A stretch of 49,989 nucleotides of DNA from Alphaproteobacteria bacterium (GTDB lineage: Bacteria; Pseudomonadota; Alphaproteobacteria; Acetobacterales; Acetobacteraceae): assembly GCA_026400815.1 (NCBI GenBank), contig JAPLOI010000052.1, positions 1 through 49,989 of the forward strand, in the 5' to 3' direction. Under the pieces are notes generated by a model. That model saw nothing but the letters and a program-made list of their open reading frames with translations. It was not told the DNA's origin and did not search any database. The translations under genes and the position numbers were made by a program. This document shows, one piece after another, positions 12,313 through 39,596 of the stretch (positions are counted from its first letter, which is position 1; each line of letters begins with the position of its first letter).

Positions 12313-14322
12313 ATGAAGCCCTGGCTACGCCACCTCCCCGCCGTGCTGGGCGTCGCCCTGCTCGGCGGGGCGATCTACGTGGTGTTCAACGAATTCCGCA
12401 ATCTCAGCATCGCCGACATCAAGACGGCACTGTCGGCGATTCCGTCTGCGCGCCTTTGGCAGGCCTTCGGCTGGACGCTGCTCGCCTATGCCATCCTCAC
12501 CATCTACGACCGGCTCGGCACCATCTATGCCGGCCGGCCGGTGAGCTACGCGCGGGCCGCCTTCGCCTCCTTCTGTGCCTATACGCTGGCGCATAATCTG
12601 GGCTTCGCTGCGGTTTCGGGGGCGGCGGTGCGTTACCGGCTTTATGCCCATTGGGGCCTGACGCCGCTGCAGATCGGCAAGGTGGTGGCGTTCTGCTCCC
12701 TCACCTTCATCCTCGGCGGCATGGTGCTGGGCGGCGCGGTGCTGCTGCTGGAGCCGGAGGTGCTGCCGGTGCTGGGCAGCCGCCTGCCGCGCTGGATGCT
12801 GCAGGGCATCGGCGCCGCATGCCTGGCCGCAACGGCGGTGTATGTGGTGCTCTCCCGCCTCGTCGGCCATGTCCGGCTGTTCGGGCACGACGTGGACCTG
12901 CCTTCCTGGCGCATGGCGATCGTCCAGACCGCCCTGGCGACGGTGGACGTGGTGGTGACGGCGGCGATCTTTCACGCCCTGCTGCCGCCGGCCGAGGGCC
13001 TGACCTTCTTCGTGGTGCTCGGCGTTTATGTGTTCGCCTATACGGCGGGGCTGCTGGCCAATGTGCCCGGCGGGCTGGGCGTGTTCGACACCGCCATGCT
13101 GCTGGGCTTGTCCACCTGGCTGGAGCCACCGGCCATCGTTGGCGCCATCGTGGTGTTCCGCCTATACTACTACATCGTGCCGCTGTTCCTGGCCGGCGCG
13201 CTGTTCGCGGGCAATGAGATGCTGCTGCGCGTACGCGGCCTGTTCGCCGGCACCGCCCGCCTGCCCGGCGTGCAGACCATTGGCCGCTGGAGCCAGCCGG
13301 ATTTCGAGGTGGCCGCCGTGGCCGGCGCGGTGGCGCTGTGCGGCGCGCTGCTGATGGCCCTCGGCGCCATGGATGCGCTGGGCGACTACACCTGGATCGG
13401 CCCGGCCTGGAGCTTGCCCGGCTGGGCGCAGTCGCTGTTCCACCCGGCCAGCGAATTCGTGCCCAGCCTGATCTGGGCGGCGCTGATGGTGCTCTCCATC
13501 GCGCTCACCCGGCGCGTGACGCTGGCCTGGGGGGTGACCATCGCGCTGCTGCTGCTGGGGGCGGCCTTCACCGCGGCGCGCGGCGAGCATTTCTGGATCC
13601 CGGCCCTGCTGCTGGGGGCTACCGCCCTGCTCGCCCCGTTCCGCCGGCTGTTCTACCGCCACGCGCGGCTGCTCTCCGGGCCGATGACGGTGCAGCGTGC
13701 TTCCGGCCCGCTGATGCTGGCCGGCGCCGTGGTGGTGTTGGCCACCTACGAACCACGGCTGACGCTGCTGGCGAAAACCTCCTGGTGGCAGGTGGTGCTC
13801 TCCAACGCAGTGCCCAACGCGGTGCGCGTCAGCGTCGCGCTGGCCGTGCTGGTGGCGCTGGTGGCGATCTGGCGCACGGTGCGCCCCGGCCGCGTGACCC
13901 ACGATGCCTGGAACGAGGCCACGCGCGCCCGCTACCGCGCCCTGGGCGGCACGCCGCTGGCCGAGGCCGACGGGTTGCTATGGGGCGAGGCGGGCCGCGC
14001 CGCCATCCCGTTCCGCCGCGTGGGCGGAGTGCTGCTGGGCTTCGGCGACCCGGCCGGCGCCGCCGCCGACCGCGTCTCGGCCATCTGGCGGCTGCGCGAC
14101 CTCGCCGCGCAGGAAGGGCTCGATCCCGCGATCTGGCGCGCCGGGCCCACGCTGCTGGGGGTCTATGCCGATATCGGCCTGGCCGCGCTGCCGCTGGATG
14201 CAGACGGCATGCCCCGGGCCGGGGAGGAAGCCGCCCCCGCCAGTGGCGAATACCTCGCCTGCGTCGCGGAGCGGGACCTGCCGACGTTGTTGCCGCTGCT
14301 GCCGGAGTTGGCCAGGCAGTAA
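12313..14322 (+). CDS. MprF-like flippase with an incomplete lysyltransferase domain
   Basis: 669-residue polytopic membrane protein. Residues about 1-310 match the UPF0104/MprF flippase part (TLAHNLGFAAVSGAAVRYRLY; NVPGGLGVFDTAM), followed by a further membrane region to about 520. The C-terminus begins a DUF2156-type aminoacyl-phosphatidylglycerol synthase domain (VGGVLLGFGDPAG; LLGVYADIGLAALPL; GEEA), then diverges and stops after GEYLACVAERDLP. Full MprF is roughly 850 residues with a complete GNAT-like catalytic region that is missing here. The protein may flip lipids without making lysyl-PG, or use a partner. The stop codon TAA is the first three bases of repeat element copy A. Confidence 0.8.
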   Translation: MKPWLRHLPAVLGVALLGGAIYVVFNEFRNLSIADIKTALSAIPSARLWQAFGWTLLAYAILTIYDRLGTIYAGRPVSYARAAFASFCAYTLAHNLGFAAVSGAAVRYRLYAHWGLTPLQIGKVVAFCSLTFILGGMVLGGAVLLLEPEVLPVLGSRLPRWMLQGIGAACLAATAVYVVLSRLVGHVRLFGHDVDLPSWRMAIVQTALATVDVVVTAAIFHALLPPAEGLTFFVVLGVYVFAYTAGLLANVPGGLGVFDTAMLLGLSTWLEPPAIVGAIVVFRLYYYIVPLFLAGALFAGNEMLLRVRGLFAGTARLPGVQTIGRWSQPDFEVAAVAGAVALCGALLMALGAMDALGDYTWIGPAWSLPGWAQSLFHPASEFVPSLIWAALMVLSIALTRRVTLAWGVTIALLLLGAAFTAARGEHFWIPALLLGATALLAPFRRLFYRHARLLSGPMTVQRASGPLMLAGAVVVLATYEPRLTLLAKTSWWQVVLSNAVPNAVRVSVALAVLVALVAIWRTVRPGRVTHDAWNEATRARYRALGGTPLAEADGLLWGEAGRAAIPFRRVGGVLLGFGDPAGAAADRVSAIWRLRDLAAQEGLDPAIWRAGPTLLGVYADIGLAALPLDADGMPRAGEEAAPASGEYLACVAERDLPTLLPLLPELARQ

Positions 14323-14478
14323 GGAAGGGTCTTCTTTTTCTGAAGAAAAAGAAGCAAAAAGACTTTTGTTCGTTTGTGCGCGGCGATGCCTTGCTTACCT
14401 GCGCGGGCGCATCGAACCGCTAAGTGATGAAAGTTTTTTGGTTCTTTTTTTCAAAAAAGAACCTCCTTTCTTCCCTTA
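14320..14478. repeat. Bipartite AT-rich stop-codon element, copy A
   Basis: Begins TAAGGAAGG, the TAA being the stop of the preceding gene. The left stem-loop at 14331-14354 has arms CTTCTTTTTCT and AGAAAAAGAAG with a GA loop. The right stem-loop at 14440-14463 has arms GGTTCTTTTTT and AAAAAAGAACC with a TC loop. The inward flanks AAAAAGACTTTT and AAAGTTTTTTGG are near inverted copies. The centre (14368-14430) is GC-rich and variable. The far end reads CTTCCCTTA. Probably a transcription terminator between the MprF-like gene and the HpnN-like gene. Confidence 0.9.
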
Positions 14479-14513
14479 TGGACCCCACCGCCCGGAGCGG
14501 ATATCCCGGGGGC

Positions 14514-17500
14514 ATGACCAATTTCTCCCTGCCGCGCCTGCTCACCGCCATTGCGGAATACTGCCGCACCCGTGCCCTGTTGGTGGTGCTCGCCGGCGTG
14601 GTGCTGGGGGCGCTGGGCGCCTGGGCCGCCGCCGCGCGGCTGGGTGTTTCCACCGATACCGACGCGCTGTTCGACTCCGCCCTGCCCTGGCGCCAGCGCG
14701 AGATCGCCGCGGCGAAGGCCTTCCCGCAGTTCAGCGACCTGCTGGTGGCCGTGGTGGAGGGCGCCACGCCGGAGGAGGCGGATGCCACGGCCGATGCGCT
14801 GGCTTCCGCGCTGGCCGCGGACACCACGCATTTCCGCTTCGCCCGCCGGCCCGATGCCGCGCCGTTCCTGCAGCGCCATGGGCTGCTCTACCTGGAGACC
14901 GCCGACCTCTCGGCCCTGCTGGACCAGACGATCGATGCCCAGCCCTTCCTGGGCCAGCTCGCCTCCGACCCCTCGGCGCGCGGGTTGTTCTCCACCCTGG
15001 CCCTGGTGGCGATGGGCGTGGAGCGCGGCGAGAAGCTGGACAGCTTCCGCCCGGCGCTGCAGGGCTTCGCCACGGCGCTGGCCGATGCGGCCGCAGGCAC
15101 CCCCACCCCGCTGTCCTGGCAGCGCCTGCTGGGCGGCAAGCTGGTGGACATGGCCGGCCCGCGCCGGCTGGTGCTGGCCCAGGCCCGGCTTGACCTCGGC
15201 GCGCTGGAGCCCGGCGGTGCGGCAACCGCTGCCCTGCGCAGTGCTGCGGCCGGGCTGGAATATGTCATGGCCGGCCGGGCTACGGTGCGGGTGACCGGCC
15301 AGGTGGCGCTGGCGGATGAGGAATTCGCCACCGTCGCCCAGGGGGCGTTGGGCGGCATGGCGATCTCTGGCGCCTTGGTGCTGCTGTGGCTGGTGCTGGC
15401 GGTGCGCTCCTGGCGGCTGATCGTGCCGATCGTGGCGACTTTGTGGCTGGGCCTGGTGCTCACCTGCGGCTTCGCGGCGCTGGCGGTGGGCACGCTCAAC
15501 CTGATCTCGGTGGCCTTCGCCGTGCTGTTCACCGGCATCGCGGTGGATTTCGCCATCCAGTTCTGCGTGCGCTACCGGGAGATGCGGCTGACCGCCGGGG
15601 AGCCCGCCCTGGCGCTGACGCAGACCGTGGTTGGCGTTGGCCCGCAGATCCTGCTGGCGGCGGTGGCAATCGCGGCGGGGTTCCTGGCTTTCGTGCCCAC
15701 CAGCTTCCGCGGCGTGGCGGAGCTGGGGCTGATCGCCGGCTTCGGCATGCTGATCGCGCTGGCCTGCACGCTGACGTTCCTGCCGGCCATGCTCACCTTG
15801 CTGCGCCCGCGCGGCGAGGCGGCGGAAATCGGCTGGGCCTGGGCGGCACGGGTGGAGGGGAAGCTGCTGCGCCACCGCGTGGCCGTCGCCGGCGGGTTCG
15901 CCGCGATCTGCCTGCTCGGCGCCGTGCTGCTGCCGCGCATCGCCTTCGACAGCGACCCGCTGCACACCAAGGACCCATCCACGGAAGCCATGGTCACGCT
16001 GCGCGCGCTGATGGATGACCCGCTCACCTCGCCCTACTCGGCCGACATCATGGTCGCCTCCCCGCAGGAGGCCGCCTTGATGATGCCACGATTGCGCGCC
16101 CTGCCGTTGGTGGCGGAGGTCGTCAGCCTCCCGTCCCTGGTGCCGGAGAACCAGGCGGAGAAGCTGCCGCTGATCGCCGATGCCGCCTCCATCCTCGGCG
16201 CCACGCTCGCCCCCCGCTCGGCCCCTGCCCCGGTGACGCCGGCTGATCTGCGCCTGGCCGTGCTGACCGCCCGCACCGAGATCGACCGCGTGCTGCCGCG
16301 CCTGGCGCCGGATGACCCGCTGCGCGCCATCGCCGCCGCGCTGGGCACGCTGGCCACCGCGCCGGATGAGCGGCTGATGCAGGCCAACGGCGCCCTTACC
16401 CGCTTCCTGCCGCGCCAGCTCGATGCACTGCGACGCGTGCTGGAGGCCGGGCCCGTGACGCTGGCGGACATCCCCGCCGACCTCGCCGCCGACTGGCGCG
16501 CGCCGGATGGGCGCATCCGCATCCAGGCCAGCGCCAAGCCCGAGGCGCGGGACGGGGCGGGGCTGCAGCGCTTTGTCGCCCAGATCCGCACCGTGGCCCC
16601 CCAGGCCGGCGGTTCCGCCGTGACGATCGTGGAGACGGCGGGGACCATCGTCGGCGCCTTCGTCACGGCCGCGCTGGGGGCGCTGGCCGCCATCGCGGTG
16701 CTGCTGCTGGTTCTGCTGCGCCGGCCGTTGGACGTGGCGCTGGTGCTCGGCTCCCTGCTCGCCTCCGCGCTGCTGACCGTTCCCGTGATCGTGTTGCTGC
16801 CCCTGCCGCTCAACTTCGCCAATATCGTGGCGTTGCCGCTGCTGCTGGGGGTGGGCGTGTCGTTCAACATCTATTTCGTGATGAACCGTGCCGCCGGGGC
16901 CAGGGCCTTCCTGGGCACCGCCACGGCGCGCGCGGTACTGTTCTCAGCCCTCACCACCGCCACCGCCTTCGGCGCGCTGGCCGGCAGTGCGCATCCCGGC
17001 ACGGCCAGCATGGGGGCGCTGCTGCTGTGGAGCCTCGGCGCCACGCTGCTGGTGACCTTCGTGCTGCTGCCCGTGGTGCTGGCCTGGAAGCGCGTGGCCG
17101 GCGCCATGCTGGCGGCGCTGCTGCTGCTCGGCCTGCCGCTGCCGGCCGCCGCCGACACGCTGGTGCCGCCAGACGGCGCCCAGCAGGGCGGGCCGCAAGT
17201 GCGCGCGCTGTGGCGGTTCGAGGCACCCACCACCGGCACCGGCACCCTCGCGCTGGAATGGACCGACACGCTCGGGCGCGTGGTGGAGCGCCGCCGCATC
17301 GCGCTCGACCTGCGCGCCGCGCGCGAGGTGGCGATCCCGCTGGACATGCGGCGCGCCATCGCGATGTCCAACACGCTGGTGGCGACGCTGGAACTCGCCG
17401 GCCAGCCGCCGCGCCGGCAGGAGGCGCGCTTCATTGCCCGGCCACCGGCCGGATGGCACGACTGGGTGGCGCAATACTGGCACGACGCCGATCCGGAGGG

Positions 17501-19571
17501 CCGCCGCCGCCTGCAGGCGCTCGGCATCGCCGCCGGCAAGGTGATCCCCAGCCGCGACGAACCCTATGATCCCGGCGTGGCGGAAACGCGCATGGCCGCG
17601 CTGGTTGCCGCCGATACGCGCTGGTACCTGGAGAACATCGCCACCGATTTCTACGCCAACTACCATCGCTGGCGCCCCAATCTCAGCGTGACATGGCTGT
17701 GGGACGAGGTGCGCCGCCGCCAGGGCGAGAACCCGGCCGACCCCAGCGTGTTCCATCGCGAGCCCAGCCTTTCCGACCCCGCCTGGATCGCCCGCATCCA
17801 GGAGCGCATTCGCGCCACCGTGCGCCATCTCGGCCCCTACCGCCCCTTGTGGTACGACCTGGCCGACGAGGCGGGGATCGCCGACCTCGCGGCGGCCTGG
17901 GATTTCGACATGGGGCCGCAGTCGCTCGCCGGCTTCCGCACCTGGCTGCGCGGCCAGTACCGCGACCTCGCGGCGCTCAACCGGCAATGGGGCAGCAGCT
18001 TTGCCACGTGGGATGCGGTGATGCCGCTGACCACCACCGAAGCGATCGCCCGCGCCGACCGCAACTGGTCCGCCTGGGCCGACTTCAAGGCGTGGATGGA
18101 CATCGCCTTCGCCCGCGCGCTGCGGGCCGGCACGGATGCTCTGCACAAGGCTGACCCCACCGCACTTTCCGGCATCGCCGGCGCGCAGGTGCCGGGCTGG
18201 GGTGGCTACGATTACGGCCTGCTCTTCGGCGCGCTCGATGCGCTGGAGATCTACGACAACGCCAACAACATGGAGATCGTGCGCTCCATCAGCCCGGGCA
18301 CCGTGCTGCTGAACACCAACTTCGCCTCCGGCCCCGGCGAGATCGCGGGCATCTGGCGACAGGTTTTGCTGGGCAGCCGCGGCCTGGTGCTGTGGGACGA
18401 GGATGCGTCGCTGCTGAACCCTGCCTCACCTCGCACCACCGGCCTTGCCCCGGTGTTGCGCGAGCTCTCCGGCGGGCTGGGCGCACAGCTGATCGCCAGC
18501 CAGCCGCACCATGACGGGGTGGCGATCCTGTATTCCCAGGCCAGCTTCCGCACCCAGTGGCTGGAAGAGCAGCTGGCCGTGGGGCCGCGATGGGTGGAAC
18601 GCGATTCCGAGAAGGAATGGGTGGAACGCGATTCCGAGAAGGAATGGTTCTTCACCCCGCCCCACCGCGCCGCGCGCGAGCGGGCGGCGCGCCTGCTTTC
18701 CACGCTCGGCGCCCAGCCACGCTGGCTTACCTCCGACCTGCTTGCCGGTGGGGCGTTGCGGAAATCCGGCGTGCGGCTGCTCATCCTGCCCGAGGTTTCT
18801 GCCCTGTCGGACGCCGAAGCCGCGGAAATCCGCGCCTTCGCCGCGCGCGGCGGCACGGTTTTGATGATGGGCACGCCCGGCCGCTATGATGGCCGCAGCC
18901 GCCTGCTGGCGCATCCGCAACTGGCCAACCTTGCCCCCGCCCGCGCCATCGCCCGCCTGCCGGACGCCGACGAGGCCGCCCTGCCCGCGCTCGCCGCCCT
19001 GCTCGCCCGCGCGGAAGCGGCCCCCCTGCTGCGCATCGCCTCCGCCGCCGGCGGCCCCGCAGCGCGCGTGGAAAGCCGTGTTCTGGCCAACGGCCGCGTA
19101 CTGCTGGTGGGCCTGCGCGCCCTGGGCGACGGCCCCACCGACATCGTGCTGACCCTGCCCCAGGGCCACATCGCCCACGACCTGCGCCGCGGCGGCCGGC
19201 TGCCGGAGACCCAGGGCCGCATCGCGCTGCGCCTTGCCGGGCCCGAGCCGGTGATCCTTGCCCTCGCGCCCTCCCGCCTGCCCGCCCCCAGCATCACGGC
19301 CGGTGCGGGCTTGCGGGCGGGCGAGGTCGCGGAGCTGCGGCTCGCCCTTGCCGGCGCCACACCCGCCGAGGCCACCGCGCTTCGGGTGGAGGTTACCGCG
19401 CCCGATGGCACGGCGATGCCGCGCTATGGCGGCAACATGGTTCTGCGCAGCGCGCCGGCCACCTGGCGGCTGCCGCTTGCCGCCAACGACCCGCCGGGAC
19501 TGTGGCGGGTGCGGGTGACCGACATGCTCTCGGGCGCGAGCGACAGCATCGTGCTGCCGGTCGCGCCCTGA
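14514..19571 (+). CDS. HpnN-like hopanoid RND transporter fused to a GH42-like glycosidase
   Basis: One uninterrupted frame of 1685 residues. Residues 1-864 are an MMPL/RND protein of the HpnN type, the hopanoid-associated exporter (DTDALFDSALPWRQRE, AFPQFSDLLVAVVEG, then two blocks of membrane segments around 280-470 and 720-870). Residues 865-1685 resemble a GH42 beta-galactosidase: LADEAGI as possible acid/base, LAGFRTWLRGQYRDLAALNRQW, DALEIYDNANNMEIVRS with a candidate nucleophile Glu, and a trimerisation-type segment DGVAILYSQASFRTQW. The junction MLAALLLLGLPLPAAADT looks like a start plus signal peptide at 17106, so two overlapping genes or a lost stop codon are possible. The start at 14514 was chosen because the open frame upstream lies in repeat A. 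A 27-bp duplication occurs at 18591. Confidence 0.8.
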   Translation: MTNFSLPRLLTAIAEYCRTRALLVVLAGVVLGALGAWAAAARLGVSTDTDALFDSALPWRQREIAAAKAFPQFSDLLVAVVEGATPEEADATADALASALAADTTHFRFARRPDAAPFLQRHGLLYLETADLSALLDQTIDAQPFLGQLASDPSARGLFSTLALVAMGVERGEKLDSFRPALQGFATALADAAAGTPTPLSWQRLLGGKLVDMAGPRRLVLAQARLDLGALEPGGAATAALRSAAAGLEYVMAGRATVRVTGQVALADEEFATVAQGALGGMAISGALVLLWLVLAVRSWRLIVPIVATLWLGLVLTCGFAALAVGTLNLISVAFAVLFTGIAVDFAIQFCVRYREMRLTAGEPALALTQTVVGVGPQILLAAVAIAAGFLAFVPTSFRGVAELGLIAGFGMLIALACTLTFLPAMLTLLRPRGEAAEIGWAWAARVEGKLLRHRVAVAGGFAAICLLGAVLLPRIAFDSDPLHTKDPSTEAMVTLRALMDDPLTSPYSADIMVASPQEAALMMPRLRALPLVAEVVSLPSLVPENQAEKLPLIADAASILGATLAPRSAPAPVTPADLRLAVLTARTEIDRVLPRLAPDDPLRAIAAALGTLATAPDERLMQANGALTRFLPRQLDALRRVLEAGPVTLADIPADLAADWRAPDGRIRIQASAKPEARDGAGLQRFVAQIRTVAPQAGGSAVTIVETAGTIVGAFVTAALGALAAIAVLLLVLLRRPLDVALVLGSLLASALLTVPVIVLLPLPLNFANIVALPLLLGVGVSFNIYFVMNRAAGARAFLGTATARAVLFSALTTATAFGALAGSAHPGTASMGALLLWSLGATLLVTFVLLPVVLAWKRVAGAMLAALLLLGLPLPAAADTLVPPDGAQQGGPQVRALWRFEAPTTGTGTLALEWTDTLGRVVERRRIALDLRAAREVAIPLDMRRAIAMSNTLVATLELAGQPPRRQEARFIARPPAGWHDWVAQYWHDADPEGRRRLQALGIAAGKVIPSRDEPYDPGVAETRMAALVAADTRWYLENIATDFYANYHRWRPNLSVTWLWDEVRRRQGENPADPSVFHREPSLSDPAWIARIQERIRATVRHLGPYRPLWYDLADEAGIADLAAAWDFDMGPQSLAGFRTWLRGQYRDLAALNRQWGSSFATWDAVMPLTTTEAIARADRNWSAWADFKAWMDIAFARALRAGTDALHKADPTALSGIAGAQVPGWGGYDYGLLFGALDALEIYDNANNMEIVRSISPGTVLLNTNFASGPGEIAGIWRQVLLGSRGLVLWDEDASLLNPASPRTTGLAPVLRELSGGLGAQLIASQPHHDGVAILYSQASFRTQWLEEQLAVGPRWVERDSEKEWVERDSEKEWFFTPPHRAARERAARLLSTLGAQPRWLTSDLLAGGALRKSGVRLLILPEVSALSDAEAAEIRAFAARGGTVLMMGTPGRYDGRSRLLAHPQLANLAPARAIARLPDADEAALPALAALLARAEAAPLLRIASAAGGPAARVESRVLANGRVLLVGLRALGDGPTDIVLTLPQGHIAHDLRRGGRLPETQGRIALRLAGPEPVILALAPSRLPAPSITAGAGLRAGEVAELRLALAGATPAEATALRVEVTAPDGTAMPRYGGNMVLRSAPATWRLPLAANDPPGLWRVRVTDMLSGASDSIVLPVAP
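18591..18644 (+). repeat. 27-bp perfect tandem duplication inside the glycosidase half
   Basis: Two identical 27-bp units (18591-18617 and 18618-18644) encode WVERDSEKE twice, residues 1360-1377 of the fused product, followed by TGG that starts a third unit. The frame is kept. The segment lies after the trimerisation-like motif and before FFTPPHRAARERAARLL, so it lengthens a charged surface loop. The identity between units suggests a recent slip. Confidence 0.95.
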
Positions 19572-19574
19572 CGC

Positions 19575-20489
19575 TTAGGGAACGCGCGGGGAGACCGGCG
19601 TGGCGCCGTCCATCGTGGCGCGCACGAAGGCACCGCCATTGACGATGGCGCGGCGCCCGGCCGCCAGCACCGGGTGCATCACGTGCCAGACGTGGATCAT
19701 CTCCGGCCACACTTCGAGCGTGACGGCCACGTGGGCTGCGCCGGCCGATGCGGCCAGCCGGGTTGAATCGTCCAGCAGCGTTTCGGCCGCGCCCACCTGG
19801 ATCAGCAGCGGGGCGAGGCCGATGAAATTGGCGTGCAGCGGCGAGGCCAGCGGGTTCTTCGGATCCGCCCCGCCCAGATAGGTCTTGGCCATGAACTCCA
19901 GCCCGGCCTTCTGCACCGACGGGTCCTCGCCGGACTTGGACGTGATCGAGCCGCCCGTCGCTTCCATGTCGATCCAGGGCGAGATGCACCAGCCGCAGGA
20001 TGGCTGCGGCAGCCCGGCGTCGCGGATCGCCAACAGGGCGGACACGACCAGGCCGCCACCGGCACTGTCGCCGGCCAGCGCGATGTGCGAGGGGGCGTAG
20101 CCCTGGGCCAGCAGATAGCGGTAGCCGGCCACCGCGTCCTCGACCGGCGCTGGGAAGGGATGTTCCGGCGCCATGCGGTAGTCGAGCGCCAGCACGCGGG
20201 TTGCCGCCGCCCGGCCCATCTCCGCCACTGCATGGCGGTGGCTGTCGAGCGAGCCGATCACGAAGCCGCCGCCGTGGAAATACAGGATCGCCCGGTTGGC
20301 CGCGGCATTGGGCGTGCTGGTCCACTCGGCCTTTACCCCGGCGGCCGTCACCGGCTCCACCGTGACGTCGTCGGCCAGTTTGTTGGCGAGGCCGCGCGCA
20401 TCGATACCGCGGCGCATTTCGGCGAGGTCTGCCGCCTTCGGGCGCGCGGCGATGGCGGCGCGCAGGGCGTCGATTTCCGGATTGCTCAT
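19575..20489 (-). CDS. HSL-family alpha/beta hydrolase (esterase/lipase)
   Basis: Serine carboxylesterase of the hormone-sensitive-lipase type. 304 residues. The oxyanion-hole motif is HGGGF (72-76), the nucleophile elbow is GDSAGG with Ser142, the acid is probably Glu236 or Asp240 (GAAETLLDD) and the His is in WPEMIHVWH (about 266). The sequence RMAPEHPFPAPVEDA is typical of the family. No signal peptide, so cytoplasmic. The ATG at 20489 has a G-rich ribosome site (GGGGGGAA) about seven bases before it. The gene ends three bases from the stop of the convergent HpnN-type gene. Repeat copy B lies between it and the upstream amidase gene. Confidence 0.92.
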   Translation of the reverse strand: MSNPEIDALRAAIAARPKAADLAEMRRGIDARGLANKLADDVTVEPVTAAGVKAEWTSTPNAAANRAILYFHGGGFVIGSLDSHRHAVAEMGRAAATRVLALDYRMAPEHPFPAPVEDAVAGYRYLLAQGYAPSHIALAGDSAGGGLVVSALLAIRDAGLPQPSCGWCISPWIDMEATGGSITSKSGEDPSVQKAGLEFMAKTYLGGADPKNPLASPLHANFIGLAPLLIQVGAAETLLDDSTRLAASAGAAHVAVTLEVWPEMIHVWHVMHPVLAAGRRAIVNGGAFVRATMDGATPVSPRVP

Positions 20490-20510
20490 GGTTTGGTTCC
20501 CCCCAGGGTT

Positions 20511-20619
20511 CAAGCAAGCGCCTTCTTTTTCTGAAGAAAAAGAAGCAAAAAGACTTTTATCACTTTCATGTCATAAAAGTTTTTTGGTTCTTTTTTTCAA
20601 AAAAGAACGTTCTTCCTTA
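20511..20619. repeat. Bipartite AT-rich stop-codon element, copy B
   Basis: Left stem-loop 20522-20545 (arms CTTCTTTTTCT/AGAAAAAGAAG). Right stem-loop 20587-20608 (arms GTTCTTTTTT/AAAAAAGAAC). The centre is only about 30 bp and is itself an imperfect inverted repeat, CTTTTATCAC/GTCATAAAAG. The right end TTCCTTA contains the reverse complement of the amidase stop codon TAA (20617-20619). It lies between two minus-strand genes, so the amidase transcript enters through the right end. Confidence 0.9.
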
Positions 20620-21957
20620 CTTCAGTGCCGCCTCCACCGCCGCGGCCACACGGAACAGCTTGGCATCCCCCATCGTTTCGCCCATCAGCATCAACCCCAC
20701 CGGCGCCTCGCCCGGCGCGGTGCAGGGCAGCGAGATGGCGCAGCGATCCAGGAAGTTGCCGAAGGCGCAGTTGCGCAGCTGCATCAGGTTCACCCGCGTA
20801 TAGGCATCGCTGTCCGCCTCCAGCGCTGCGATCGGCGGCGGCAGCAGCGGGCAGGTGGGCATCACGATCGCGTCGAAATCCTGCGTGACGGCGTTGGCAC
20901 GGGCGCAGATTTCGGCGCGGGCGGAGAGCAGCGCCACGTAGTCCGCGGCCGCCATGCCTTGCCCCGGCATGATGCGCTTCAGCACTTGCGGGTCGTAGCC
21001 GGCGGCCTTGGCGGCGATCAGCTCGCGGTGCCAAGCCCAGGCCTCGGCGGCGGCGAAGGTGCCGCGGGCGTTGGCGCGGGGGATCTCATCGAACGCGGCC
21101 AGGCGGAGGCGCACGATGCGCGCCCCGGCGGCCGAGAGCTTGGACAGCGCGGCCTCGAACGCATTGGCCACCTCGGCATCCATGCCATCCAGCACTGCGT
21201 TCTCCGGCGCGCCCAAGCGCAGGCCGGCGAGCGGGGCGGCGGCGAGGTCGGGGATCGGTTCGCCCGCGAACACCGCATCGATTGCGGCGCAGCAGGCGAC
21301 GGAATTGGCCAGCGGGCCGATCGAATCGAGGCTGGTGGACAGCGGCACCACGCCGGTGATCGGCACGCGCCGCGCCGTGGGCTTGTAGCCGACGATGCCG
21401 TTCATCGCGGCAGGGATGCGGCAGGAGCCGCCGGTATCCGTGCCCAGCGCGCCATAGGCCATGGCATCGGCGATCGACACGCCGGCGCCGGAGGAGGAGC
21501 CGCCGGGGATGCGGCCCGTCGCGCGGTCCCACGGGGATTTCGGCGTGCCGTAATGCGGGTTGATGCCCAGGCCGGAGAAGGCGAACTCCGTCATGTTCGT
21601 GCGGCCCATGATCACGAACCCGGCCTCGGCGATGCGTTGCACCACGGGGGCGTTGGCCGCCTCTGGCGCCGCATCGGCCAGCACGGTGGAGCCGGCAGTG
21701 GTGACCTGCCCGGCGATTCCGGCCAAATCCTTCACGCTGAACGGAATGCCGGCGAACGGCCCCAGCGCGCGGCCGGCGCGGCGCAGCAGGTCCATCGCAT
21801 CCGCCGCGGCGCGCGCACCTTCGGCATCCACCTTGATGAAGGCGCGGCTGCCCTCCCCGGCCGGGTCTGCAATGCGGGCGAGGCAGTCCTCCACCAGCTG
21901 GCGGGATGTGGTCTTGCCAACGGCAAGGGCGGCGGAGAGATCGTTCAGGGTGCGCAT
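20617..21957 (-). CDS. Amidase-signature family hydrolase
   Basis: Hydrolyses amide bonds with a Ser-cisSer-Lys triad. 446 residues. Lys76 in GIPFSVKDLAG, cis-Ser154 in PGGSSSGAG and nucleophile Ser178 in GTDTGGSCRIPA are all present at the usual spacing. No gatB or gatC homologue is adjacent, and the length and lack of a GatA tail argue for a small-molecule amidase. The substrate is unknown. The start is the ATG at 21957; the frame stays open much further upstream, but that extension is antisense to the neighbouring SDR gene. It is divergent from that gene with 93 bp between starts. Confidence 0.92.
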   Translation of the reverse strand: MRTLNDLSAALAVGKTTSRQLVEDCLARIADPAGEGSRAFIKVDAEGARAAADAMDLLRRAGRALGPFAGIPFSVKDLAGIAGQVTTAGSTVLADAAPEAANAPVVQRIAEAGFVIMGRTNMTEFAFSGLGINPHYGTPKSPWDRATGRIPGGSSSGAGVSIADAMAYGALGTDTGGSCRIPAAMNGIVGYKPTARRVPITGVVPLSTSLDSIGPLANSVACCAAIDAVFAGEPIPDLAAAPLAGLRLGAPENAVLDGMDAEVANAFEAALSKLSAAGARIVRLRLAAFDEIPRANARGTFAAAEAWAWHRELIAAKAAGYDPQVLKRIMPGQGMAAADYVALLSARAEICARANAVTQDFDAIVMPTCPLLPPPIAALEADSDAYTRVNLMQLRNCAFGNFLDRCAISLPCTAPGEAPVGLMLMGETMGDAKLFRVAAAVEAALK

Positions 21958-22929: not shown

Positions 22930-22945
22930 CCGGAGGAACCGCGCC

Positions 22946-29103: not shown

Positions 29104-29110
29104 GGCGGGC

Positions 29111-30631: not shown

Positions 30632-30678
30632 GAATCGGGTCCGTTTGCGGCCGGGAGAGGGCAGTATAGAGTGCTGCC

Positions 30679-31878: not shown

Positions 31879-31900
31879 CGCCCATCATGGTGGTGCTGGC

Positions 31901-32887
31901 ATGACCGGCTCCAACCCGCCCGGGGCCCCAGCGTACGGCCCGGCGAAGCTGCCGCAATTCGAGGTGCGGCTGCCCGCGCCTGATCTTTCCCCCTGGCGCA
32001 CCGGCAACACCGGCATCCCCGGCTTCACCAGCTTCGCCGCCGAGGCCCCTGGCCCGGACGTGCTGCTGCTGGGCCTGATGCACGGCAACGAATACGCCGG
32101 TGCCACGGTGCTGGACCGCATGCTGCGCGCCAAGCTGCGCCCGCTCTGCGGCCGGCTCACCTACGGCTTCGCCAACCTCGCCGCCTTTGCCGCCTTCGAT
32201 CCCGCCAACCCCACCGCGTCGCGCTTCCTCGACGAAGACCTCAACCGCGTCTGGGACCCCGCCCTGCTCGACGGCCCACGCCACTCCGCCGAACTGGCCC
32301 GCGCCCGCGAAATCCGCCCCGCCGTGGAAGCCGCCGACGTGGTGCTCGACCTGCACTCGATGCTCTGGCCGTCAGATCCGCTGATCCTGTGCGGCGCCGC
32401 CGCCCGCGGCCGGATGCTGGCCCAGGCGATCGGGGCGCCGCCCCTGGCAGTGGCCGATCGCGGCCACAGCAACGGCCCCCGGCTGATCGACATGGCACGC
32501 TTCGCCGGGCCCGATGGCAGCGCAACCGCCCTGCTGGTGGAATCCGGCCAGCACTGGGATCCCGCCGCAATGGACATGGCCGCGGCCAGCATCGCCGGCC
32601 TGCTGCGCCATCTCGGAATGCTGCGCGCCCACCCCACCCTGCCAGCCCCCGCTTCGCAACCGGGCCGCGTGGCCGAAGTCACCCATGCCGTCACCGCCGC
32701 CACCGGCAACTTCGCCTTCGTGCGCGCCTTCCGCGGCGGCGAAGTGATCCCCCGCCGCAACACGCTGATCGCGCTGGACGGCACAGAGGAAATCCGCACC
32801 CCGCACGACGACTGCCTGCTGGTGATGCCCAGCCTGCGGCCAAGCCGGGGGCATACGGCGGTTAGGCTGGCACGGTTTGTCGAATAG
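31901..32887 (+). CDS. Succinylglutamate desuccinylase/aspartoacylase family hydrolase
   Basis: 328 residues, zinc carboxypeptidase fold. Ligands His61 and Glu64 (GLMHGNEY) and His152 (VVLDLHSM) are present, with DEDLNRVW at 111-118 as in aspartoacylases. A beta-strand-rich C-terminal part follows (GEVIPRRNTLIALDG). It probably removes an acyl group from an N-acylamino acid; the neighbour upstream is an M20 deacetylase, suggesting a shared pathway. The start was chosen at the ATG with GGTGG seven bases upstream. The stop codon TAG begins repeat element copy C. Confidence 0.86.
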   Translation: MTGSNPPGAPAYGPAKLPQFEVRLPAPDLSPWRTGNTGIPGFTSFAAEAPGPDVLLLGLMHGNEYAGATVLDRMLRAKLRPLCGRLTYGFANLAAFAAFDPANPTASRFLDEDLNRVWDPALLDGPRHSAELARAREIRPAVEAADVVLDLHSMLWPSDPLILCGAAARGRMLAQAIGAPPLAVADRGHSNGPRLIDMARFAGPDGSATALLVESGQHWDPAAMDMAAASIAGLLRHLGMLRAHPTLPAPASQPGRVAEVTHAVTAATGNFAFVRAFRGGEVIPRRNTLIALDGTEEIRTPHDDCLLVMPSLRPSRGHTAVRLARFVE

Positions 32888-33007
32888 AAGGAAGCGGTTC
32901 TTTTTTGAAAAAAAGAACCAAAAAACTTTTATTCGTTTGATGCGGAAAACTCCTATCTTTCCGCATCAAACGAATGAGGTCTTTTTCTTCAGAAAAAGAC
33001 GGCCTTA
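32885..33007. repeat. Bipartite AT-rich stop-codon element, copy C (reverse orientation)
   Basis: Both flanking genes end in it: TAG (32885-32887) of the aspartoacylase-like gene and TAA (33005-33007, minus strand) of the enoyl-CoA hydratase. The right-type stem-loop comes first here (32896-32919, arms GGTTCTTTTTT/AAAAAAGAACC type) and a left-type loop second (32979-33000, arms GTCTTTTTCT/AGAAAAAGAC). The centre is an 18-bp perfect inverted repeat: ATTCGTTTGATGCGGAAA at 32931-32948 and its complement at 32958-32975. Confidence 0.92.
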
Positions 33008-33805
33008 CCTACCCTTCCACTGCGCCGGGCGCTTCTCCATGAACGCCGTGCGCCCTTCGCGATAATCCTCGCTGTCGAAGCAGGCCAGGATCGCAGCATC
33101 CACCGCCGCACGATCGCGCTGGCTCTCGCTGGCCATCGCCGCGTTCACCGTCAGCTTGGTGGCGCGCAGGGACAGCGGCGCGTTCGCGGAAATCGTCTTG
33201 GCCAGGGCCAGCACCGTGTCGGTCAGTTCTTCGTCCGGCACCACCTTGTTCACCAGGCCGACGCGCTGCGCCTCGGCGGCACCGAACCGCTCACCGGTCA
33301 TGATGATCATGCGCGCATGGGCCTGGCCCACCAGCGAGATCAGCCGCTCCACCATCTCGAAGCTATAGGCGATGCCGAGCTTCGCCGCCGGAATGCCGAA
33401 CTGCGCGCCCTCGCCAGCAATGCGCAAATCGGCCTGCATGGCGATGCCCAGCCCGCCACCCAGGCAGAAGCCGCGGATGGAGGCGATCACCGGCTTCGGG
33501 AACGCCGCCAGCCGCGCACGCCCGGCGCCGGTCAGCCGGTCGTATTCCAGCTGCGCGTTGCCGTCGGCGCGGGTGGATTCGAACTGGCTGATATCGGCAC
33601 CGGAGACGAACGCCTTCGTCTCGGCCCCGGTCATCACCACGGTGCGGATCGCCTCATCCGCCTCGAACGCGTCCAGGATCTCCGACAGCCCATGCCACAT
33701 CGCCACCGACATGGCGTTGCGCTTCTCCGGCTGGTTGAAGGTGATCAGCCCAACGCCCTCCGAAACCTCGGCGAGCATCTTTCCGTCGGCGTACTGCGTG
33801 GTCAT
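33005..33805 (-). CDS. Enoyl-CoA hydratase/isomerase family protein
   Basis: 266-residue crotonase. The CoA/oxyanion-hole motifs AFVSGADISQF and GFCLGGGLGIAMQADLRIA are present, and the C-terminus ends in FMEKRPAQWKGR, as in enoyl-CoA hydratases. Its ATG overlaps the stop of the CoA-transferase gene (ATGA), so the two are coupled and probably act on one CoA-linked substrate. The acid residue following the second oxyanion motif is partly changed (IPAAKLGIAYSFEM), so the exact reaction is open. Confidence 0.9.
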   Translation of the reverse strand: MTTQYADGKMLAEVSEGVGLITFNQPEKRNAMSVAMWHGLSEILDAFEADEAIRTVVMTGAETKAFVSGADISQFESTRADGNAQLEYDRLTGAGRARLAAFPKPVIASIRGFCLGGGLGIAMQADLRIAGEGAQFGIPAAKLGIAYSFEMVERLISLVGQAHARMIIMTGERFGAAEAQRVGLVNKVVPDEELTDTVLALAKTISANAPLSLRATKLTVNAAMASESQRDRAAVDAAILACFDSEDYREGRTAFMEKRPAQWKGR

Positions 33806-35007: not shown

Positions 35008-35082
35008 CTTCATCCTCCCGGATTGCTGCGCGATGATCGGCCGGATGGCGCCATCGCTCAAGGGTGATGGTAACGTGCCGCC

Positions 35083-35721
35083 ATGGACGACGCCGATCTC
35101 GCCCTGATCATCGCGCTGGACTGCTCGGCCAGCGTCTCGCTGGAGAGCTTCGGCCGCATGGCCAGCGGCTGCGCGGCCGGGCTGCGCGACGAAGCGGTGA
35201 TCGCCGGCCTGCTCTCAGGCCCGCGCGGCGCCAGCCTCTGCGCCCTGCTGATCTGGTCCGGCCCCACCGCGCAGGAGGTGATGCTGGACTGGACCCGCAT
35301 CGCCAGCCCCGACGCGCTGCACGCCTTCGCGGAGGAAGTGGAGAACGTCCCCCGCACCATCCGCGCCGGCGCCACCGCCGTCGGCGAAGCCCTGCGCGCC
35401 TGCGAAACCCTGATCCTCGCCGCCCCCGCCGGCGCCACACGCGTGGTGATCGACATGGTGGGCGACGGCAAATCCAACCAGGGCATCCTGCCCCACATAC
35501 CGCGCGACCGCCTCGTCGCTGGCGGCGTCACCATCAACGGCCTGTGCGTGCTGCACGAGGAGCCAGACCTGCTGGCGCACTACCAACAGAACGTCATCGG
35601 CGGCCCCGGCGCCTTCGCCATGACCTGCCAGAACTTCGCCGAGTTCGAGGAAGCAATGCGCCAGAAGCTACGGCGGGAGATCATCGCAGCGCTTGAGAAG
35701 AAAGAATCTTCTTTTTTCTGA
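35083..35721 (+). CDS. DUF1194 (von Willebrand A-like) protein
   Basis: 212 residues. IIALDCSASVSLESFGRMASG carries the DxSxS metal-ion motif, and LIWSGPTAQEVMLDW, RTIRAGATAVGEAL and VIDMVGDGKSNQG follow the DUF1194 pattern. Most members have a signal peptide; this one begins MDDADLALIIALDCS, so secretion is unclear. The function is not known. The natural family end is near KLRREIIAAL; the last residues KKESSFF are read from repeat element copy D, whose stem-loop supplies the stop. Confidence 0.82.
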   Translation: MDDADLALIIALDCSASVSLESFGRMASGCAAGLRDEAVIAGLLSGPRGASLCALLIWSGPTAQEVMLDWTRIASPDALHAFAEEVENVPRTIRAGATAVGEALRACETLILAAPAGATRVVIDMVGDGKSNQGILPHIPRDRLVAGGVTINGLCVLHEEPDLLAHYQQNVIGGPGAFAMTCQNFAEFEEAMRQKLRREIIAALEKKESSFF

Positions 35722-35842
35722 AGAAAAAAGAAGCAAAAAAGACTTTATTGACTTGCACGCGTGTCAGATGCCCTAGCACGCGTGCCAGTGATCAAAAGTT
35801 TTTTGGTTCTTTTTTTCAAAAAAGAACCGCTTCCTTGCCTTA
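35700..35842. repeat. Bipartite AT-rich stop-codon element, copy D
   Basis: Left stem-loop 35708-35733 with 12-bp arms CTTCTTTTTTCT/AGAAAAAAGAAG, one T longer than in the other copies. Right stem-loop 35805-35828 (arms GGTTCTTTTTT/AAAAAAGAACC). The variable centre contains CACGCGTG twice as an imperfect inverted repeat (35755-35795). The right end GCTTCCTTGCCTTA holds the TAA stop of the binding-protein gene. It sits between convergent genes. Confidence 0.9.
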
Positions 35843-37426
35843 CGCGCTCCGCTTCACATTCCAGAACACCGGCAGCCCGGTCAGCACCCCTTCCAGGTTG
35901 CTGCGATGGGCACTCTGCGCCCGCACCTGGCCCAGCGGGATATAGGGCACGTCGCGGAACGCCTGCAGTTGCAGCGCCTCGCACACTTTCTGTTGCGCGG
36001 CGAGGTCCGGGGCCAGCAGCCATTCGGCCCGCAGCGCCTCGATCGTGGGGCTGATCGGCCAGCCCATGATGCCCTGGCGCCCGTTGCCGCGCAGGAAGGC
36101 GTGCACCGCCGGGTTGAACTGGTCCACCCCGCCCCAGGAGGTGTGGAACACGCTCCAGCCGCCCTGGTCCACCGGCTCCTGCTTGGTACGGCGCTGCACC
36201 ACGGTGGCCCAGTCCATCGCCTGCGCCTCCACGTTCAGCCCGATGCGCTTGAACAGGTCGAAGGTCACCTCGGCGATCGCCTTGGTGGAAGGGATGTCCT
36301 GCGGCGCCAGCAGCACCACCTTCTCGCCCTTGTAGCCGGCCTCGGCCAGCAGGCGCTTCACGTTCTCCAGGTTGCGCGGGGCATTGAGGTTCTCCATCCC
36401 CGCCTGGGTGTCCATCGGCGTATCGGGGCAGAAATAGCCCACGCCCTCGCGCCACAGCGCCTTGTCCTCACCCTGGATGGCAATCATGTAGTCGCTCTGC
36501 GTCACGGCCTGCACGATGGCGCGGCGGATCGCCGGGTTGTCGAAGGGCGGCTGCAGCTGGTTGAACCGCATCGTGGCGATGGTCCCGGTCGGGATCATGG
36601 TGAACAGCCGCACATTGCGGGAGCGCTGCAGCACCGGCCGCAGATCGGCCGTCGGCCCGCCCCACCAGTCGATCTCGCCCTGGATCAAGCCGTTGGCCAC
36701 CGCGGAAACGTCGGGGATCACCGACCATTCCACCCGGTCGAAATGCACCACCTTGCCACCGGCGGTGCGCTCGGCCACCTCGTTGCGCGGCACATAGCCC
36801 TCGAACTTCTCGTACACCACGCGGCTGCCCGGCACGCGCTCATCCGCCTTGAAGCGGAACGGGCCGGAGCCGACCATCTCCGTGATCTGCCGGGAAGGGT
36901 CCGTCTCCGCCAGCCGCGCCGGCATGATCGGCAGCATGTTCGGCGAATAATGCCCCAGCGCATCCGGCAGCAGCGGGAACGGGTTCTTCAGGCGGAACAC
37001 GATGGTGCGGTCATCCTGCGCCACCAGCTCGTTGGTGGCCGCCATCAGCGCCTGGCCGAAGCTGTCGCGCTTGCCCCAGCGCTGGATGCTGGCCACGCAA
37101 TCGCGGGCGAGCACGCGTTCGCCGTCGTGGAACTTCAGCCCCTCGCGCAGGGTGATCTTCCAGGTCTTGCCGTCATCCTCCATCACATGGCCCTCGGCCA
37201 TCTGCGGGCGGATGCGATACTGGTCGTCCTGCCCATACAGGCTGTCGAACACCATGAACCCGTGGTCACGGGTCTGGTAGCTGGTGGTGATCACCGGGTC
37301 GATCACCGCGAGGTCGGCATCCGGCACGAACTTCAGCACGCGCCGGTTTTGCGCCTGCACGATCTTCGGGGCAGCAAGGGCCGCGCCCGCGGTTGCGAGT
37401 CCGCCGAGAACCTGACGCCGCTTCAT
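35840..37426 (-). CDS. Extracellular solute-binding protein, dipeptide/oligopeptide ABC type (family 5)
   Basis: 528 residues. The N-terminus MKRRQVLGGLATAGAALAA is a twin-arginine-like signal peptide with cleavage near VQAQ, so it is exported to the periplasm. The SBP_bac_5 fold is indicated by YGQDDQYRIRPQMAEGH, WKITLREGLKFHDGERV and GSGPFRFKADE. It binds peptides or related ligands for an ABC importer, but no permease or ATPase gene is in the window. AGGAGG lies eight bases upstream of the ATG. It is divergent (129 bp) from the FAD oxidoreductase and ends in repeat copy D. Confidence 0.92.
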   Translation of the reverse strand: MKRRQVLGGLATAGAALAAPKIVQAQNRRVLKFVPDADLAVIDPVITTSYQTRDHGFMVFDSLYGQDDQYRIRPQMAEGHVMEDDGKTWKITLREGLKFHDGERVLARDCVASIQRWGKRDSFGQALMAATNELVAQDDRTIVFRLKNPFPLLPDALGHYSPNMLPIMPARLAETDPSRQITEMVGSGPFRFKADERVPGSRVVYEKFEGYVPRNEVAERTAGGKVVHFDRVEWSVIPDVSAVANGLIQGEIDWWGGPTADLRPVLQRSRNVRLFTMIPTGTIATMRFNQLQPPFDNPAIRRAIVQAVTQSDYMIAIQGEDKALWREGVGYFCPDTPMDTQAGMENLNAPRNLENVKRLLAEAGYKGEKVVLLAPQDIPSTKAIAEVTFDLFKRIGLNVEAQAMDWATVVQRRTKQEPVDQGGWSVFHTSWGGVDQFNPAVHAFLRGNGRQGIMGWPISPTIEALRAEWLLAPDLAAQQKVCEALQLQAFRDVPYIPLGQVRAQSAHRSNLEGVLTGLPVFWNVKRSA

Positions 37427-37555
37427 CGCCGTGCCTCCTGAAAGGAATGGAAGTCCGGGATGTAGGGCCAACGGCCGGCACGGGGCAACCATGGCGTTGC
37501 CCCCCTTGCAAGCCGCCGCGCGCCGGGCATCTTGGGGGAACGTGGGAGGGTACCT

Positions 37556-38659
37556 ATGGAAGACGTGGACGTTGTGGTGGTCGGTGCGGGCGTGGTGGGC
37601 ATCGCCGTGGCCCGCGCCCTGGCGCTGGCCGGGCGCGAGGTGATCGTGCTGGATGCCGCGGAAGGGATCGGCACCGAGACCTCTTCGCGCAACAGTGAGG
37701 TGATCCACGCCGGCATCTACTACCCCAAGGGCAGCCTGATGGCGCGCTTCTGCGTCGAAGGCCGCCGCATGCTCTACCGCTTCTGCGATGAGCGCGGCGT
37801 GCCCTACAGCAATTGCGGCAAGCTGATCGTCGCCACCAGCGACGCGGAGACGGAGATGCTGGCCGGCATCAAGGCCCGCGCGGAGGCCAACGGGGTGGAG
37901 GGCATGCGCTTCCTCACCGCCGCCGAGGCCGTTGCCATGGAGCCCAACCTCACCTGCACCGGCGCCCTGTTCTCGCCCACCACCGGCGTGCTGGACAGCC
38001 ACGCCTACATGCTGGCCCTGCAGGGCGATGCCGAGCACGCCGGCGCCATGTTCGTCTTCCACTCCCCGGTGGAGGGCGGGCGCGTCACGGAACAGGGCGT
38101 GGAGCTCGCCGTCGGCGGTGCCGACCCGATGCGCCTGCGCGCCCGCCTGGTGATCAACTCCGCCGGCCTGCACGCCTGCCCACTGGCCCGCAAGATCGAG
38201 GGCATGCCACGCCAGCTGATCCCGCAGGAATACTACGCCCGCGGCAACTACTTCACCCTCACCGGCAAGTCCCCGTTCACGCGGCTGATCTACCCGGTTC
38301 CCGTCCCGGGCGGGCTGGGCGTGCACATCACCATCGACCTCGGCGGCCAGGCCCGCTTCGGGCCCGACGTGGAGTGGATCGACCACATCGACTACACGGT
38401 CGATCCCCGCCGCGCCGACAGTTTCTACGATGCCGTGCGCCGCTACTGGCCCGCCCTGAAGGACGGCCAGATCCAGCCGGGCTATTCCGGCATCCGCCCC
38501 AAGATCGTGCCCAAGGGCGCGCCGGCGCAGGATTTCGTGGTGCAGGGCAGCGCCGTGCACGGCATCCCGCACCTGATCAACCTGTTCGGCATCGAATCCC
38601 CTGGCCTCACCTCGGCCATCGCCCTGGCCGACCACGTCGCCGAGATCGCGGCCGCATGA
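37556..38659 (+). CDS. FAD-dependent oxidoreductase, L-2-hydroxyglutarate dehydrogenase-like
   Basis: 367 residues of the DAO/LhgO type. The Rossmann motif [17 protein letters not shown] (residues 7-23) and [20 protein letters not shown] match L-2-hydroxyglutarate dehydrogenase, and [22 protein letters not shown] supports it. It probably oxidises a 2-hydroxy acid and passes electrons to a quinone; the substrate is not certain. GGGAGGG precedes the ATG. The gene ends with an [21 protein letters not shown] flavin-binding tail. Confidence 0.9.
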
Positions 38660-38732
38660 CCCGTGGGTTGCGCGGGCCACGTGACGGAATGTATTAACGA
38701 TTCATCTCGCAAGCCCAGCCGGATCGTTTGAT

Positions 38733-38861: not shown

Positions 38862-38865
38862 CCCA

Positions 38866-39459
38866 TCAGGAGGCGCGGCGCGCCCGCAGCGCCGCCGCCA
38901 GCGTCCCGTCATCCAGCACATCCAGCGCGCCGCCCATCGGCACGCCCTGCGCCACCCGCGTCACCGCCACCCCAGTGGGGCGCAGCCGCTCGGTCAGCCA
39001 ATGGCTCGTCGTGGCCCCATCCACCGTGGCGGCCAGCGCCAGGATCACCTCCTGCACCCCGCCCGCCTCCACCCTCGCCAGCAGCGGCGCGATGTTGAGG
39101 TCCTCCGGCCCGATACCGGCCAAAGGGGAGAGCGTTCCGCCCAGCACGTGGTAGGTGCCGCGATGCACATGCGCCCGCTCCAGCGCCCACAGATCCCCCA
39201 CGCTCTCCACCACGCACACCAGGCCACGATCGCGATGCGGGTCGGTGCACACCTGGCAGGGATCGGTGCTGTCCAGATTGCCGCAGGCGGAACACGCCCG
39301 CACCGAGCGCGCCGCATCCTGCATCGCCTGGGCCAGCGGCAGCAGCCGCGTCTCGGGCTCCTGCAACAGCTTCAACGCGGTGCGCCGGGCGCTGCGCGGG
39401 CCGAGGCCAGGCAGGCGGGAGAGCAGCGCAATCAGGCGGTCGATTTCGGGGCCGCCCAT
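38866..39459 (-). CDS. recR: Recombination mediator protein RecR
   Basis: 197 residues. RecR helps load RecA at gaps and forks with RecO/RecF. The helix-hairpin-helix RLPGLGPRSARR at the N-terminus is followed by the zinc motif Cys56-Cys59-Cys68-Cys71 (CSACG...CQVC) and a Toprim domain (VCVVESVGDLWALE). Its start codon sits right beside repeat copy E, which supplies its 5' leader, with GAAGAG about eleven bases before the ATG. It is downstream of ybaB and dnaX in an otherwise conserved order. Confidence 0.95.
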   Translation of the reverse strand: MGGPEIDRLIALLSRLPGLGPRSARRTALKLLQEPETRLLPLAQAMQDAARSVRACSACGNLDSTDPCQVCTDPHRDRGLVCVVESVGDLWALERAHVHRGTYHVLGGTLSPLAGIGPEDLNIAPLLARVEAGGVQEVILALAATVDGATTSHWLTERLRPTGVAVTRVAQGVPMGGALDVLDDGTLAAALRARRAS

Positions 39460-39460
39460 T

Positions 39461-39596
39461 TAGGCAAGACTCTTCTTTTTCTGAAGAAAAAGAAGCAAAA
39501 AGACTTTTGTTCGTTCGCCGGCCACGAAGGCCAAGCGCAAACTCACAAAAGTTTTTTGGTTCTTTTTTTCAAAAAACAACATGCTTCCTTGCCTTA
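39461..39596. repeat. Bipartite AT-rich stop-codon element, copy E
   Basis: Left end TAGGCAAGACTCTTC one base outside the recR ATG; right end CTTCCTTGCCTTA with the ybaB stop TAA (39594-39596). Left stem-loop 39472-39495 (arms CTTCTTTTTCT/AGAAAAAGAAG). Right stem-loop 39558-39580 has one mismatch (CAAC where the others have GAAC). It separates ybaB from recR, both on the minus strand, so the whole element lies between two genes that are normally co-transcribed. Confidence 0.92.

Follow-up and report, generated by a model that had tools for sequence, protein, structure and literature searches.

A dispersed three-hairpin repeat family abutting stop codons in Acetobacteraceae, and its possible role as a bidirectional terminator

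What does an AT-rich palindrome do directly behind the stop codons of a GC-rich bacterium? This question is raised by a 49,989-nucleotide stretch of DNA (contig JAPLOI010000052.1 of assembly GCA_026400815.1; the window) from an alphaproteobacterium of the family Acetobacteraceae, which carries five copies of one repeat between its genes. The repeat is 100 to 150 bases long, near-palindromic, and able to form three hairpins, and the host genome is about 69% GC. The five copies almost certainly belong to a real, dispersed family whose members abut stop codons. The proposal that the repeat works as a bidirectional terminator is, in our judgment, evenly balanced, and it is weighed below against three other explanations.

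Anatomy, dispersal, and placement of the repeat

Direct reading of all five window copies confirmed the plan described in the original prediction. A full element consists, in order, of an (AAGN)n tail, AU hairpin A, an A-tract, a palindromic centre, a T-tract, AU hairpin B, and an inverted tail. As read from the window copies, the arms of hairpin A are CTTCTTTTTCT / AGAAAAAGAAG, those of hairpin B are GGTTCTTTTTT / AAAAAAGAACC, and the inner boxes are CAAAAAGACTTTT to the left of the centre and AAAAGTTTTTTGG to the right. The two halves had been described as diverged inverted copies of one another, and they are, with terminal inverted repeats at the ends of the element; symmetric B..B forms exist in other genomes. 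The predicted plan of two stem-loops with inward-facing boxes is present, with the correction that three hairpins, not two, are possible because the boxes are mutually complementary and close a central stem. RNA folding of five copies or strands gave z-scores of -7.5, -5.8, -7.5, -5.5, and -4.5, and the shortest folded copy (20517-20619) favoured one long hairpin over three. Central arms paired with their own partners at -17.4 kcal/mol, compared with -11.0 kcal/mol for re-dealt partners (standard deviation, 0.6; n = 61). Matches to half-element profiles reached the 65- to 70-bit bin, whereas reversed sequence stayed below 15 bits.

The tail, scored as at least two AAG in 16 nt, was found at 88 of 105 stop-facing ends and 44 of 52 start-facing ends, and its equal frequency at start-facing ends indicates that it belongs to the element. 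The junction consensus originally proposed, TAA-GGCAAGGAAGC, holds exactly for only two ends, those on the right of the copies at 35700 and 39461; the usual ending is an (AAGN)n array. At two loci of genome G080 (L258 and L265), the tails have expanded to about six or more CTTC tetranucleotide units, and these arrays resemble a simple-sequence repeat behind genes. Two centres on contigs of the host genome (C31, near 70640, and C37, near 57770) hold another repeat-like stretch, GATTGCTTCGCTTCGCTCGCAATGACGGG and similar, apparently as nested insertions.

A dispersed family had been anticipated, and the exact core AAAGTTTTTTGG indeed occurs 233 times in the 5.1-Mb genome, with no occurrence of the reversed control. 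Profile searches of 450 kb of contiguous sequence and 45 short loci yielded 90 copies; one without a boundary was dropped, and the 89 analysed comprised 72 full two-ended copies, 13 B halves, and 4 A halves. The short loci lean toward intact B halves because they were picked by the exact core. Genes were taken from a codon-usage caller, which placed 383 genes in the 450 kb (91.5% coding).

Convergent junctions are occupied more often than expected and divergent ones rarely: the counts are 13 of 55 (convergent), 25 of 269 (tandem), and 2 of 55 (divergent), where intergenic base pairs would predict shares of 10, 57, and 33%, respectively. The predicted location between tandem and convergent genes is thus what was observed. 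None of the 72 full copies, to which this test was confined, lies inside a called gene, with the caveat that a gene split by an element into two called pieces would score as intergenic; one half copy (C20 61299) overlaps what was called as the 5' part of a gene.

Proximity to stop codons above chance was the test on which the original prediction had staked itself, and it was found in the larger set as it was in the window, where at least one outer end of every copy abuts a stop. Among 105 stop-facing ends, the stop lies 0 to 20 nt from the hairpin in 93, inside the hairpin in 5, and further off in 7, compared with 16.9% within 20 nt under random per-base-pair intergenic placement; in 91 of the 105, the hairpin lies 0 to 15 nt past the stop. 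The asymmetry is clearest in the 40 full copies between tandem genes, 39 of which are within 20 nt of a gene on the stop side and 8 on the start side. On the A side, the distance from a TAA stop to the hairpin peaks at 4, 8, and 12 nt, and on the B side at 3, 7, and 11 nt (also 4, 8, and 12), a 4-nt period that follows from the (AAGN)n array of the tail.

Placement was also scored in other genomes, for which end counts and half-copy orientations cover ends matching the B core. On named contigs among the matches listed, no B end of 92 falls within a called gene; a stop is faced by 63, of which 45 have it within 20 nt, and TAA accounts for 19 of these 45 near stops, compared with 92 of 496 gene stops. 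In G080, where the caller had been trained on another genus, none of 22 B ends is inside a gene, and 6 of the 15 that face a stop are within 20 nt of it.

The range of the repeat is patchy. Of 100 genomes from the same family (99 genera, the host genome included), 29 have the exact 15-base core AAAGTTTTTTGGTTC and 71 do not, with copy numbers from 0 to 626. A 21-base core was absent from 285 Alphaproteobacteria genomes of other families, and in the class-wide set of 289 genomes, which also held three others of the same family, it was found in the host genome only. Named carriers among the matches listed include Roseomonas, Gluconacetobacter, Acidiphilium, Rhodovastum, and Nguyenibacter, together with many metagenome-assembled genomes (MAGs) of Rhodospirillales; a few carrier MAGs among these matches are labelled Bacteroidales, Oscillospiraceae, or Acidobacteria and are perhaps mis-binned. 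One copy was matched by two plasmid records, both from Pseudoroseomonas, and by one phage record. In a Microviridae record from cattle blood (MG945182.1, 5908-5944), 37 bases are 97% identical to the T-tract/hairpin B half, and the match sits between two annotated features (L241:1001-1037). No description of this repeat was recognised in the literature searched; arm sequences used as queries returned 0 papers, and the excerpted text of a Gluconobacter transcriptome paper (PMC5756330) holds nothing on it. At gathering scores, no Rfam family matched the element copies in the window, in which the sole Rfam match was a bacterial small signal recognition particle RNA (RF00169; 41845-41942, minus strand, 58.5 bits).

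Stop codons and turnover at individual sites

Four of the five window copies run A..B on the plus strand. The first (14320-14479; hairpin A, 14331-14354; hairpin B, 14440-14463) starts at the TAA (14320-14322) that ends the gene at 12313-14322, and its right tail enters the start of an MMPL family gene (14478-19571). The left tail of the second (20511-20619; hairpin A from 20522, hairpin B ending near 20608) faces the start of a minus-strand alpha/beta hydrolase gene (19575-20489), and its right end coincides with the TAA (complement, 20617-20619) of a minus-strand amidase gene (20617-21957). The third copy (32885-33007) is inverted, on the minus strand, with a shortened variant hairpin A and a long perfect central hairpin; it lies between the TAG (32885-32887) of a plus-strand gene (31901-32887) and the TAA (complement, 33005-33007) of a minus-strand enoyl-CoA hydratase-type gene (33005-33805). 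In the fourth (35697-35842), the TGA (35719-35721) of a plus-strand DUF1194 gene (35083-35721) falls inside the loop of hairpin A, and the right end abuts the TAA (complement, 35840-35842) of a minus-strand SBP_bac_5 gene (35840-38680). The final codons of the DUF1194 protein (C-terminal KKESSFF) derive from the element together with the stop in the hairpin loop. The fifth (39460-39596) separates two minus-strand genes, its left tail touching the start codon of the RecR gene (38866-39459) and its right end lying at the TAA (complement, 39594-39596) of the YbaB/EbfC gene (39594-39920). This YbaB-RecR pair (38866-39920) is only 6 to 7 nt apart in two genomes of the same genus.

The original prediction went further and held that the stop codon is itself part of the element. 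This did not survive comparison with seven genomes of the same genus (best flanks 74 to 97% identical) over 48 syntenic stretches. Among filled/empty ortholog pairs, the stop codon occupies the same position in 135 of 165, a comparison that scores some shortened-hairpin copies as empty (for example, at the left neighbour of the gene at 33005-33805 in G000); the position was equal in 478 of 524 pairs in which neither gene abuts an element and in 99 of 113 in which both do. A stricter test covered 19 gene families with both states and dropped any element-free member that had a hairpin-like remnant no further than 150 nt away or <40 nt of sequence. The modal stop shift was 0 in 15 of these families, and -9, -3, -1, and +2 in the others. 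Because the gene ends at the same codon in both states in 15 of 19 families, the position of the stop is usually older than the element, and the rule that the element supplies the stop was rejected. True shifts do occur, in the gene ending at 14322, which is 9 codons shorter than in G104, and in the DUF1194 gene.

What changes is the identity of the stop, which shifts to TAA. Stops at element junctions are TAA in 30 cases, TAG in 12, and TGA in 9, compared with 33, 97, and 198 at element-free junctions. In the 19-family test, the 62 filled members end in TAA (38), TAG (12), or TGA (12), and the 60 element-free members end in TGA (34), TAG (16), or TAA (10). The shift is probably attributable to the tail, which starts AAG, such that a preceding T would complete TAA. 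In six filled genomes the stop of the amidase gene is TAA, and in the empty G104 it is TGA. The YbaB gene upstream of recR, whose stop position is constant throughout, has TAA in G000, G102, and G103, TAG in G105 and G104, and TGA in G106 (filled or partly filled), with TGA in the empty G100 and TAG in the empty G033. In another family (C31_9), G105 is filled and G103 partly filled; the empty G000, G102, and G106 still end in TAA, which on one reading is the scar of element loss, and G104, G100, and G033 end in TGA.

Gain and loss at orthologous sites, as originally predicted, was evident from empty sites in related genomes. The survey, started from 39 full copies, gave 136 filled and 34 empty comparisons. 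Sites in the window are empty at 39460 in G100 and G033, at 20508 in G104, and at 14320 in G104 and G100; in G106 and G033, the element at 20508 has been reduced by internal deletions to one hairpin behind the stop. At a further site (C31 8044), G104 has no element, and the copies in G033 and G100 point the opposite way. In orthologous copies of G102, G106, and G103, the nearest three relatives, the arms are 96 to 99% identical, the flanks 94 to 96%, and the centres 77 to 84% (8/9 own copies, gap columns ignored; deletions account for 34 and 38 gap columns in the G106 arms). This conservation of the arms probably reflects selection rather than gene conversion.

Mobilisation may depend on an enzyme acting in trans. 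Direct repeats of 4, 5, 6, and 8 bases flank 33, 9, 1, and 0 of 69 copies, respectively, compared with means of 35.3, 12.4, 3.7, and 0.3 for re-dealt flanks, and no target-site duplication is apparent. The TTA found at each end of site 39460 had suggested a YTAR-type target and a duplicated stop codon, an idea that was discarded on the same counts. No recent duplicates were seen within the host genome, where the closest of 61 centres (1,830 pairs) are 84% identical. The transposase search, which was limited to PF01797, returned one Y1_Tnp match in the genome (28.7 bits), a RAYT-like gene (REP-associated tyrosine transposase, where REP stands for repetitive extragenic palindrome; L240:3802-4464, G000:C53), and its 8-kb region has no match to the element profile.

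A possible terminator and the alternatives

In the mechanism proposed here, the element would settle immediately behind an existing stop codon, in the manner of a REP, a bacterial interspersed mosaic element (BIME), or a miniature inverted-repeat transposable element (MITE). Each side would then read stop, tail, AU hairpin, A-tract, centre, T-tract, and second AU hairpin, and the other strand would read the same. RNA polymerase leaving either flanking gene would transcribe the central hairpin, closed by its A-tract/T-tract stem, and release of the transcript at the T-tract or T-tracts would give intrinsic termination in both directions. The hairpin a few nucleotides past the stop would become part of a protected mRNA 3' end.

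The anatomy of a bidirectional terminator, which the original prediction had pointed out, is supported as far as structure goes, since the A-tract/hairpin/T-tract arrangement is present on both strands. Of the 50 element-bearing stops, 49 have a run of five T's within 170 nt, compared with 13 of the 331 others; among all 62 sampled stops followed by such a run, 49 carry an element. A hairpin with a T-tract follows 43 of the 50 element-bearing stops, compared with 34 of the 331 others. Full copies between tandem genes show no A/B preference (22 versus 21), which counts in favour of a terminator, as do the convergent bias, the proximity to stops, the pairing of the centre, the conservation of the arms, and the symmetric B..B forms.

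Four sets of results weigh against it. Orientation of half copies failed as a test of termination, with B halves between tandem genes lying 1 sense and 4 antisense in the host genome and 11 sense and 18 antisense in other genomes. Central pairing was better within than across species at three of six orthologous sites, clearly so at one; this weak result implies that most of the central covariation is inherited rather than maintained, and it weakens the covariation as proof of an RNA function. In element-free relatives, the gaps between the genes at three of six tandem sites are 6 to 7, -4/13/103, and 31 nt (72 to 110 nt at the remaining sites), and the short gaps indicate that copies lie within likely operons, ybaB-recR being one example. 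Finally, two parts of the window were scanned for generic terminators, and the yield did not clearly exceed that of shuffles: 2 against a shuffle mean of 4.6 in one part and 12 against 5.6 in the other.

The half copies retain the near-stop hairpin in either orientation, and they suit an element of REP-like, post-transcriptional function, in which the conserved AU hairpin would affect the stability of the mRNA 3' end or the terminating ribosomes rather than RNA polymerase. The location of the hairpin 0 to 15 nt past the stop in 91 of 105 stop-facing ends favours such a role, as does the conservation after insertion of the arms and not of the centre, and the deletions at 20508 in G106 and G033 spare exactly one hairpin behind the stop. 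REPs less than 16 nt from a stop are reported, in an excerpt of PMC12306157, to lower translation in Escherichia coli. A post-transcriptional role alone leaves the T-tracts on both strands and the convergent bias unexplained. On the balance of these points, the terminator stands at about even chances, and the post-transcriptional role is a possibility in which we place rather low confidence.

Copies tolerated inside likely operons also fit a purely selfish, MITE-like repeat, for which insertions elsewhere would be purged and the gap behind the stop tolerated without any host function. This explanation accords with the uneven copy number (0 to 626), with turnover of copies within the genus, and with the opposite orientations at C31 8044 in different species. 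It is nonetheless unlikely, given that intergenic space alone predicts 17% stop proximity where 89% was observed and that divergence is lower in the arms than in the flanks, which are mostly coding; in addition, target-site duplication is not above that of re-dealt flanks, and the search confined to PF01797 yielded no mobiliser.

The fixed sequence of the arms, which termination alone does not need, could instead mark a recognition site for a family-specific DNA- or RNA-binding protein or for DNA uptake, kept at gene ends to avoid damage. Neisseria uptake sequences, which lie within terminators, would be a parallel. The 21-base arm core is identical in contigs of Roseomonas, Gluconacetobacter, Acidiphilium, Rhodovastum, and others, an identity that is there by construction because the core was the search pattern, and 71 of the 100 family genomes are without the exact 15-base core. 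A recognition site seems the most improbable of the explanations considered. Returning to the terminator, its fullest version, in which a mobile palindrome is actively targeted to gene 3' ends, inserts at the stop codon or just beyond it, grafts a bidirectional terminator there, and has over the history of the family become the main source of T-tract terminators in GC-rich genomes with few others, appears doubtful.

Known systems and wider meaning

REPs and BIMEs resemble the element in being short, high-copy extragenic palindromes that form inverted pairs around a variable centre, and flanking open reading frames are reported often to take their TAG stop from a REP terminus (excerpt of PMC3733652). 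REPs and BIMEs are, however, GTAG- or CGTC-tagged and RAYT associated, whereas the element here is AT-rich, its outer 20-nt flanks contain GTAG/CTAC in 7 of 138 cases and CGTC/GACG in 5 of 138, and the single RAYT-like gene has no copy in its 8-kb region; the same excerpt reports CGTC repeats to be missing in Acetobacteraceae. Membership in the RAYT/REP system was ruled out on the lack of tags and of a linked transposase. Like MITEs, the element is short, noncoding, and of high copy number, with inverted-repeat ends and presence or absence at orthologous sites. It differs from them in its focus on stop codons, in target-site duplications that do not exceed those of re-dealt flanks, and in the lack of a parent transposon in the search of PF01797, the only family queried. 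The failed tag, RAYT-linkage, and target-duplication tests are the reason that the element is not placed in these families. Bidirectional terminators of low-GC Firmicutes, as described in an excerpt of PMC1590033, share the order of A-tract, hairpin, and T-tract, and the location close behind stops and at convergent junctions; here, by comparison, these features belong to a family of repeats whose arms are fixed and which add two further AU hairpins and an (AAGN)n tail, and the genome is about 69% GC.

If the terminator reading is true, one repeat family would supply most of the T-tract hairpins behind the genes of this bacterium, and a repeat with the same arms would be common to several genera of a family to which acetic acid bacteria belong. 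It would become possible to test how the spreading of a repeat, as opposed to piecemeal origin, gives rise to terminators, why a mobile sequence should favour stop codons, and how repeats reshape stop usage from TGA and TAG to TAA. The elements could also yield bidirectional terminator parts for genetics in the family.

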